A stretch of DNA of 64,000 nt from NCBI RefSeq assembly GCF_001697225.1, contig NZ_CP014671.1, positions 2,976,001 through 3,040,000 of the forward strand, read 5' to 3'. The stretch is from Immundisolibacter cernigliae (GTDB taxonomy: Bacteria; Pseudomonadota; Gammaproteobacteria; Immundisolibacterales; Immundisolibacteraceae). Position numbers and translations under genes: made by a program. Shown piece by piece: positions 18,091-51,720 of this stretch; positions within the stretch are counted from its first letter, which is position 1, and every line of letters starts with the position of its first letter. Under the pieces are notes generated by a model that worked only from the letters and a program-made list of their open reading frames with translations, searched no databases and had not been told where the DNA came from.

Positions 18091-18115
18091 GACGCGCCGA
18101 CGCCCAATCGCAGGC

Positions 18116-18145
18116 AAAAAAAACCCGGCCAAGGGTGGCCGGGTT
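18116..18145 (-). terminator. intrinsic terminator of downstream unit
   Basis: On the minus strand, AACCCGGCC-loop-GGCCGGGTT (plus 18122-18145) is followed by eight T (18116-18123). This is a strong Rho-independent terminator. Confidence 0.85.
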
Positions 18146-18235
18146 AAAAGGATAACCCGCTCAGGGAGGGGAAGCGGGCGATACCTCGCAGAGGTCTCGT
18201 TGGTTAAGACCGGGGCTGACACCGGAAAGTTTCAC
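18116..18235 (-). ncRNA. candidate small RNA B (downstream unit)
   Basis: Minus-strand unit starting near GTGAAACTTTCC (18235). It can form GGTCT-taaccaacg-AGACC or the alternative ACCTC-tgc-GAGGT. A 6-bp hairpin CCCGCT/AGCGGG (18156-18178) then carries an 11-nt C-rich loop containing CCCCTCCC, and a perfect 9-bp terminator stem with eight T ends the unit. The C-rich loop is complementary to Shine-Dalgarno sequences, as in known anti-SD sRNAs. The transcript boundaries are inferred and no promoter is certain. Confidence 0.5.
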
Positions 18236-18314
18236 GGTCGACCAGAATTGTTTTCGATGGCCGCCACGGCGCGTGGCTAAGCTTGATGTCGGACATGCGC
18301 CGCCGATCGCAGGC

Positions 18315-18344
18315 AAAAAAAACCCCGGTCACGAGTGGCCGGGG
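18315..18344 (-). terminator. intrinsic terminator after rnfH
   Basis: Minus-strand CCCCGG...CCGGGG stem (plus 18323-18344; one C-A mismatch near the loop) followed by eight T at 18315-18322. It would end the ratA-rnfH transcript. Confidence 0.8.
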
Positions 18345-18439
18345 CTAGAAGGGAATAAACCCGCTCAGGGAGGGGAAGCGGGTGATACCTCGCAGAGGTC
18401 TCGTTGGTTAAGACCGGCCCACGCCAGGGAAAGTTTCAC
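18315..18439 (-). ncRNA. candidate small RNA A (rnfH-proximal unit)
   Basis: The same architecture as the downstream unit: GTGAAACTTTCC at 18428-18439 (overlapping the rnfH stop), the conserved block with the GGTCT/AGACC stem, the C-rich-loop hairpin at 18360-18382, and a terminator with eight T. Because it begins inside the rnfH stop region, it could be an mRNA 3'-UTR processing product rather than an independently initiated RNA. Confidence 0.5.
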
Positions 18440-18726
18440 CGCCCGCCAGACTTTTTTGCGTTGGTCGCCGCGCGTTGGCGTCGCGCTGTTTTCGGGTCCA
18501 CCTGCAGCGGCAGGTACAGCTCCAGCCGGTCGCCATCGGCGAGCGGCGTGTCCGTGCCGACGGTCCGTCCGAACAGGCCCAGCGTCCGGCCTTCGGTCAG
18601 CGCCAGATCGAAGGCCGCAAGTGCATCGCGGGCCGTGGCGCCGACTGGCAATTCAGCCTGAATGATCCGGTAGTCGGCCCCGTCCGGGCAGGCAATCTCG
18701 ACCCGGATCAGCTCAGCGGCGGCCAT
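18436..18726 (-). CDS. rnfH: RnfH family protein (UPF0125)
   Basis: A 96-residue ubiquitin-like beta-grasp protein. [28 protein letters not shown] and the central [25 protein letters not shown] match the RnfH/UPF0125 family, followed by a basic tail ([10 protein letters not shown]...KKSGGR). Its role is uncertain; it is the frequent partner of ratA in gamma- and betaproteobacteria. The ATG at 18724-18726 lies inside the 3' end of ratA (14-base overlap). The C-terminal codons and 3' UTR are duplicated downstream. Confidence 0.9.
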
Positions 18727-19902: not shown

Positions 19903-20261
19903 GGGGGCGACCTGGCTTCGACGTGGGTTGCGAAACCTGAGGTGCATGCCGAGGTGCAGTGACCTCGTAAATCACTCTGCAAAACTTTAGTTGCCAACGA
20001 CGACAACTACGCACTCGCTGCTTAAAACCCAGTAGGGTGCCGTCTGACCGGATGTGCTTGTGCGTTCGGGGTTCAGGCGTCGACACACACAAGCTCGCGG
20101 CAAGGCAGGCCTGGGGCCGACCCGCTAAAACCTTTCAGGATCGCTGGCTGTTTTCCCTGCCCGTCGGGTAGCAGTCGGCTAAAACAATAGACTGGGATAA
20201 GCATGTAGAGCCAACGGCAGAGGACTTGCGGACGCGGGTTCGATTCCCGCCGCCTCCACCA
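19903..20261 (+). ncRNA. ssrA: tmRNA (transfer-messenger RNA)
   Basis: A 359-nt RNA. The 5' end GGGGGCGACCTGGCTTCGACG and the 3' end GTTCGATTCCCGCCGCCTCCACCA pair as the tRNA-like acceptor stem (GGGGGCG with CGCCTCC, CCA encoded). The tag reading frame at 19993-20025 encodes ANDDNYALAA then TAA. Pseudoknot-forming segments lie between 20030 and 20200. It rescues stalled ribosomes with SmpB. The 3' end is a common integration site for genomic islands, and lower-GC DNA begins just downstream. Confidence 0.97.
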
Positions 20262-29574: not shown

Positions 29575-29624
29575 TGAACCGCCCCGGCTTTCCCGGAGGC
29601 TCATTCCCTTGAGAGGATAGAGCC

Positions 29625-30844
<1,220 letters not shown>

Positions 30845-30883
30845 CTCACACCAACGAGTCTCCGGGGTTACCGGGGCGGTTCA

Positions 30884-39099: not shown

Positions 39100-39149
39100 T
39101 GAACCGCCCCGGCTTTCCCGGAGGCTCATTCCCTTGAGAGGATAGAGCC

Positions 39150-40369
<1,220 letters not shown>

Positions 40370-40415
40370 CTCACACCAACGAGTCTCCGGGGTTACCGGG
40401 GCGGTTCATACAGTC

Positions 40416-51285: not shown

Positions 51286-51419
51286 CGGGATACTCCTGCT
51301 CGCGCTCACCCGCGTGAGAGCTGGTTCGGCTTGAAAAAACCGGCAAGCAGGGGAAAACGCGCGGCACGGCGGCCGCAGGGCGGCACAACCCTCCCGGCGC
51401 ATCGCCCACCGCAATGCCG

Positions 51420-51620
51420 ACCAAAGTGCCTCGGGCCGGTCTCCGGACTTGCGAGTGGGGCATGAACCCCGGCTGCGGCGCCTTCCCGTGCCGATGGCAC
51501 AGTGGCATTTCGCCGCAGCTTGACTCGCTTACCGTTGCGGGGGCAGTGCCGGAATTGTTCGTCAGGAACGCACCGGCTTCCCGTTTCATCCCGCAGGCGA
51601 ACGCCTTTGGGACACCACGA
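51420..51620 (-). promoter_or_regulatory. cobalamin riboswitch
   Basis: On the minus strand the class I cobalamin aptamer elements occur in order: GGGAAGCCGGTG, the core GCCCCCGCAACGGTAA, GCCACTG, GGGAAGGCG and the B12 box AAGTCCGGAGACCGGCC. It precedes btuB and should repress it, and possibly the whole cluster, when adenosylcobalamin is plentiful. The B12-box end lies at about 51431-51455. Confidence 0.95.
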
Positions 51621-51720
51621 AGCGGCCGGCATGGTAGGCGGCCGAGGCGGGGGCGTCAACGCGCTGGCGGGCGCATCCGGTCGGCTATCATCGCGGGCAG
51701 GTCACCGGCGGAGAGGGTGG

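Follow-up and report, generated by a model that had tools for sequence, protein, structure and literature searches.

Tandem units behind rnfH

In the window, that is, the whole stretch of 64,000 nucleotides analysed here, ratA and rnfH lie on the minus strand; behind them come two units, each about 125 bp long: copy 1 (18440-18315) and copy 2 (18240-18116). The features of the locus and the evidence for each are as follows.

18436..18726, minus: rnfH (Ub-RnfH), 96 aa (Pfam PF03658, 54.8 bits; sequence)
18430..18437, minus: putative -35 element of copy 1, GAAACTTT (motif match, alignment)
18409..18414, minus: putative -10 element of copy 1, GTCTTA, 15 nt past the -35 (motif match, alignment)
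18315..18403, minus: predicted sRNA of copy 1, about 89 nt (RF02837, 53.2 bits at 18315-18385; fold z -3.0)
18384..18402, minus: 5' hairpin of copy 1, GAGACCTC-TGC-GAGGTATC (alignment, fold)
18360..18382, minus: C-rich hairpin of copy 1, open loop CCCCUCCCU at 18367-18375 (fold, stem extraction)
18315..18346, minus: terminator stem and U8 tract of copy 1 (sequence, fold)
18237..18296, minus: rnfH coding end in a second, drifted copy brought by duplication (local alignment)
18226..18233, minus: putative -35 element of copy 2, GAAACTTT (motif match, alignment)
18205..18210, minus: putative -10 element of copy 2, GTCTTA (motif match, alignment)
18116..18199, minus: predicted sRNA of copy 2, about 84 nt (RF02837, 57.6 bits at 18116-18181; fold z -4.8)
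18156..18178, minus: C-rich hairpin of copy 2, open loop CCCCUCCCU at 18163-18171 (fold, stem extraction)
18116..18145, minus: terminator stem (18122-18145) and U tract of copy 2

The 5' ends of both sRNAs were placed from the promoter position, and the RNAs are accordingly predicted to be about 85-90 nt, instead of the 120 nt or so of the original prediction. A tmRNA gene (19903-20261, plus strand) adjoins smpB, with ratA and rnfH on the opposite strand. Elsewhere, the window holds a cobalamin riboswitch (51417-51623, minus strand; RF00174, 105 bits) and two identical direct copies of 1309 bp (29575-30883 and 39100-40408), each with an ALIL pseudoknot (RF01497). The latter are probably one insertion sequence present twice, and could form the ends of a composite element.

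Two minus-strand units with the predicted order of parts are present. They form a direct repeat (18104-18265 versus 18303-18469) of 83% identity over 169 aligned positions, at an offset of about 200-204 bp. The tandem duplication takes in the last 57 bp or so of rnfH, of which the TGA stop overlaps the -35 element of copy 1. As had been proposed, the coding end has drifted in the downstream copy: the rnfH coding end can be aligned to the 60 nt that precede copy 2 with a local score of 38, against a shuffle mean of 15.6, and none of 1000 shuffles was as good. A drifted rnfH end is likewise found before copy 2 in a second species of the genus (G001).

The predicted fold of both RNAs starts with a 5' hairpin, continues with a C-rich hairpin whose open loop, CCCCUCCCU, is nine nt long, and ends in a terminator. 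The folding energy was -33.1 kcal/mol for copy 1 (89 nt; z -3.0) and -37.4 for copy 2 (84 nt; z -4.8), the z-scores being taken against dinucleotide shuffles. Together with the repeat, these folds support the proposal of structured sibling RNAs that arose when a stretch including the rnfH coding end was duplicated. The terminator stems do differ and still fold, one outer C-G pair of copy 1 being A-T in copy 2. To call them fully compensated would be wrong because of an internal C/A mismatch in copy 1, which is a C-G pair in copy 2. Alignment of five copies from three species showed the 5' hairpin and C-loop core to be invariant except at one A/G position, unlike the variable linker and flanks, followed by a terminator with partly paired substitutions. 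This near-invariant core within varying surroundings supports the suggested selection on RNA.

Membership in RF02837 and synteny

The original prediction treated the RNAs as undescribed. This view fails because both copies exceed the gathering score of the Rfam family RF02837 (anti-hemB; 49.5 bits), copy 2 with 57.6 and copy 1 with 53.2 bits in the covariance-model search, and because a relative is expressed and Hfq-bound: ncS04, the RF02837 member of Burkholderia cenocepacia, is a 105-nt RNA with a mapped 3' end and reported binding to Hfq, and its level showed no significant change in the conditions tested by its authors (PMC5688073). Within the 3.24 Mb genome, the two copies are the only matches above the cut-off. 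In both, a terminator comes after the C-rich hairpin CCCGC-(CCUCCC loop)-GCGGG, and the positions of the consensus middle hairpin are deleted. Since the score passes without that hairpin, the copies are shortened members; as an RNA family they are already known, and the window pair is a shortened and duplicated form of RF02837. The 23-nt hairpin, with C or T allowed at one loop position, was found at no fewer than 120 places (at least 120) in named genomes and, among the matches listed, almost all were betaproteobacterial by record title.

Conservation downstream of rnfH, as anticipated, was observed in the order. A gene of this type stands behind rnfH in all six readable genomes and is twinned in three; this count leaves out G006, where the sequence breaks off, and G005, for which no rnfH was obtained. 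In the same genus, twins are present in the genome under study (G000) and in G001, and a single gene in G002; the sister genus has twins in G003 and a single gene in G004. For another family (G007), an RNA-like unit follows rnfH behind GAACTA-15-GTCTGA. Copies from one genus appear to resemble each other more than they resemble those of another, as separate duplications or gene conversion would produce. Arrays also occur elsewhere in the class: G177 has four copies, G268 at least four, and G113 and G155 have two each. The arrays of at least four C-loop units (L246 in G177:C33 and L250 in G268:C3) have units about 150-340 bp apart, and those of L246 score in RF02837, RF01719 (ErsA) and RF02232 (sX13). 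At the named betaproteobacterial loci, neither a second core within 1.5 kb nor a nearby rnfH was found.

Promoter motifs and competing readings

Each copy is preceded by GAAACTTT-15-GTCTTA, which is laid out like RpoE/AlgU-type promoters and fits their -35 and -10 elements as recognised by RpoE (sigma-E). The elements GTGAAACTTTCC and GGTCT, formerly taken as parts of the RNA, fit the -35 and -10 instead; the GGTCT/AGACC stem is better read as the promoter -10 and then the RNA 5' end. In the five-copy alignment, TGAAACTTTC is invariant, the spacer varies in sequence at constant length, and CCGGTCTTA is invariant; a few variable bases then lead up to the RNA core. A scan for sigma-70 promoters found none. 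Each copy appears to possess its own promoter of the RpoE (envelope-stress) type. Several points count against this reading: the -35 of the sRNA genes is GAAACTTT, not the usual GGAACTT; in this genus the motif was seen inside rpoE but not before it; the reversed control also matches once; Burkholderia-type members differ in their promoter region; and ncS04 showed no significant change in its authors' conditions.

The genome encodes rpoE-rseA-rseB and hfq. Across the genome, the pattern AACTTTN{13,16}GTCTNA matches three times, at the two sRNAs and at one site inside rpoE, and the reversed-pattern control matches once. The site inside rpoE (L170; G000:C1:2110041-2110066, outside the window) uses unusual codons, such as TTA ACT and GGT CTT AGC, and its motif is kept in three species of the genus; it is a possible autoregulatory promoter for rseA-rseB. 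In G000 and G001, the RpoE-type motif was seen only inside the gene and not upstream of rpoE. For three genomes of the sister genus, GAACTTT-14-GTCT was found upstream of rpoE.

The survey was extended to the class Gammaproteobacteria in the GTDB sense, which includes the Betaproteobacteria. RF02837 matched in 105 of 274 genomes at E <= 1e-4, with 13 above the curated cut-off, and in one of 14 control genomes, below the cut-off. Flanks were read for 119 matches, five of them from this genus. An RpoE-like promoter was detected within 85 nt upstream in 97 of these (about 4 expected from shuffles), compared with 10 at -285 to -200 of the same matches. The promoters mostly start 46-57 nt before the match, with a GAACTn-GTC spacer of mostly 15. 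As the covariance model excludes the promoter, this evidence is independent of the search itself. Among weak matches below 30 bits from this genome and its relatives, only one of 27 had the promoter. The ErsA locus found in the class carries GAACTTC-15-GTCATA upstream, a layout like that of the window promoters.

Members from Burkholderia, Paraburkholderia and Pandoraea (L048-L127) show a conserved TGGTATAT at the place that the RpoE-type promoter occupies in other Betaproteobacteria, as though the sigma factor of the family had been exchanged in these members. For the 57 entries not of the Burkholderia promoter type, a -35-like element lay within 120 nt in 43 (background 0.06), mostly at -47 to -54; nine entries come from this genus, so that the count for named loci is 34 of 48. 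A C-rich hairpin was present in 102 of the 119 matches, where 67 different stems were seen, and in 25 of 115 when the flanks were shuffled; the count leans to paired stems because the matches were found with a structure model. In nearly all cases the loop contains CUCCC, near-constant while the stems vary. When 25 diverse matches were aligned with MAFFT, RNAalifold mispaired this hairpin, since loop lengths differ, and was set aside; stems were therefore extracted directly. The same design of putative promoter plus loop recurs across the class.

The original prediction derived the RNAs from the rnfH 3' UTR. This holds in that the duplication carried the rnfH end, and finds no support as a plain 3'-UTR reading, each copy having an RpoE-type promoter. 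That the RNAs are processed or terminated ends of rnfH mRNA, made without promoters of their own, is unlikely: copy 1 does start at the rnfH stop codon with a terminator behind it, the GGTCTT/GAGACC stem can form in full-length copy 2, and RNase E processing makes the active S17S of B. pertussis (PMC11722255), but the -35 and -10 blocks are invariant around a variable spacer in both copies, and the same promoter precedes most class-wide matches, although these lie in places other than behind rnfH.

A -35 element of the AAC type is common to many ECF groups, and the genome has at least one further ECF-like sigma factor (76 bits). Independent sRNA genes under such a factor, outside the envelope-stress response, could therefore be imagined; this reading is equally improbable, as the GTCTTA/GTCATA -10 and its spacing agree with what is seen at the sister genus's rpoE promoters and at the ErsA locus. 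Each unit lies behind a gene and ends in a terminator, but that they are structured rnfH terminators and nothing more is very hard to credit, because the core and not the terminator is invariant between species, the loop is near-constant above varying stems, and one member of the family, ncS04, is expressed as an sRNA (PMC5688073).

Proposed action and related sRNAs

We consider it probable that the locus contains two tandem RF02837 sibling sRNA genes with their own RpoE promoters, making RNAs of about 85-90 nt under envelope stress, of which the CCCCUCCCU loop blocks Shine-Dalgarno sequences. Release of RpoE under envelope stress would switch on both genes, and each promoter would give a terminated RNA with a short 5' hairpin, the C-rich hairpin and a U-tailed terminator. 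The open loop would pair with GGGAGG-like Shine-Dalgarno regions of target mRNAs and block their translation, probably assisted by Hfq sitting at the U tail. With the same loop in both, two copies would mainly provide higher dose and robustness.

That a C-rich loop of this kind pairs with Shine-Dalgarno sequences was already proposed, and the nine-nt open loop agrees with it. The pairing most likely follows the characterised cases of S17S (PMC11722255), ncS27 (PMC5688073) and sX13, the last without Hfq (PMC3771888). A target scan with the pattern CAGGGAGGN{3,11}ATG gave 12 sites, and its reversed control gave 0. The twelve start sites with CAGGGAGG are no more than suggestive. Several of the ORFs are very short, and the others have no common theme, including an NnrU protein, a Rieske dioxygenase subunit, and membrane and exported proteins. 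Since Shine-Dalgarno-like sequence is in any case expected before starts, no target is claimed.

In the literature examined, no regulator or function is attached to anti-hemB, and a limited search of open-licence literature found no paper that gives RF02837 an RpoE-type promoter, joins it to ErsA and sX13, or names sX13 and ErsA together. Since most scored matches of the class have an RpoE-type promoter in the same position, a directly testable regulator is at hand, and this class-wide pattern is the part worth following. The single, double and four-copy arrays of related genomes also form a natural series on why sibling sRNAs persist.

Among the closest known RNAs is anti-hemB (Burkholderia RNA 7): in the C-rich hairpin, 22 of 23 positions agree with the form that is commonest among the betaproteobacterial matches listed. 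The window copies differ in lacking the middle hairpin, in their tandem arrangement and in their position behind rnfH; Burkholderia-type members have another promoter region, whereas the window copies have the RpoE-type. For the double-hairpin "toxic" sRNAs of RF02278 (ncS27) and the Bordetella pertussis S17S, the likeness lies in the CU-rich loop directed to the ribosome-binding site and in the two-hairpin shape (PMC5688073, PMC11722255); the window copies score 28.7 and 20.5 bits in RF02278 (cut-off 50). S17S is made by RNase E processing (PMC11722255), a difference from the window RNAs, and was likened by description. Tandem homologous sRNAs are also described for NmsR of Neisseria meningitidis, with unpaired CU-rich stretches against ribosome-binding sites, and for CcsR1-4 of Rhodobacter (cuckoo RNAs), which differ in sharing a transcript with a DUF1127 gene, driven by an RpoHI/RpoHII promoter (PMC5688073, PMC10253847); this likeness too is one of description.

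ErsA of Pseudomonas aeruginosa (Pseudomon-1, RF01719), which depends on sigma-22 (PMC7565897), resembles the window copies, as read at the ErsA locus found in the class, in promoter layout, C-rich loop and terminator, and differs in sequence and hairpin order. Neither copy matches RF01719 (cut-off 50 bits) up to E = 1. Across the class, this model found one true ErsA and one sub-threshold overlap; identity with ErsA was therefore rejected, and kinship is kept as a possibility. The sX13 RNA of Xanthomonas (RF02232) shares the C-rich loops, which pair with G-rich motifs near start codons independently of Hfq (PMC3771888); copy 1 reached only 20.3 bits in RF02232 (cut-off 50). Promoter and loop design altogether link RF02837 to ErsA and perhaps to sX13, each studied in one lineage. 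We tentatively suggest, as an idea that may well prove too broad, that RF02837, ErsA, sX13 and many unnamed matches all belong, as branches, to a single old superfamily of sRNAs in the Gammaproteobacteria (GTDB sense), with an RpoE-type promoter and a CCTCCC-loop hairpin as its defining features. Such a superfamily would give the envelope-stress response a general RNA arm, and would have been amplified into tandem arrays repeatedly.
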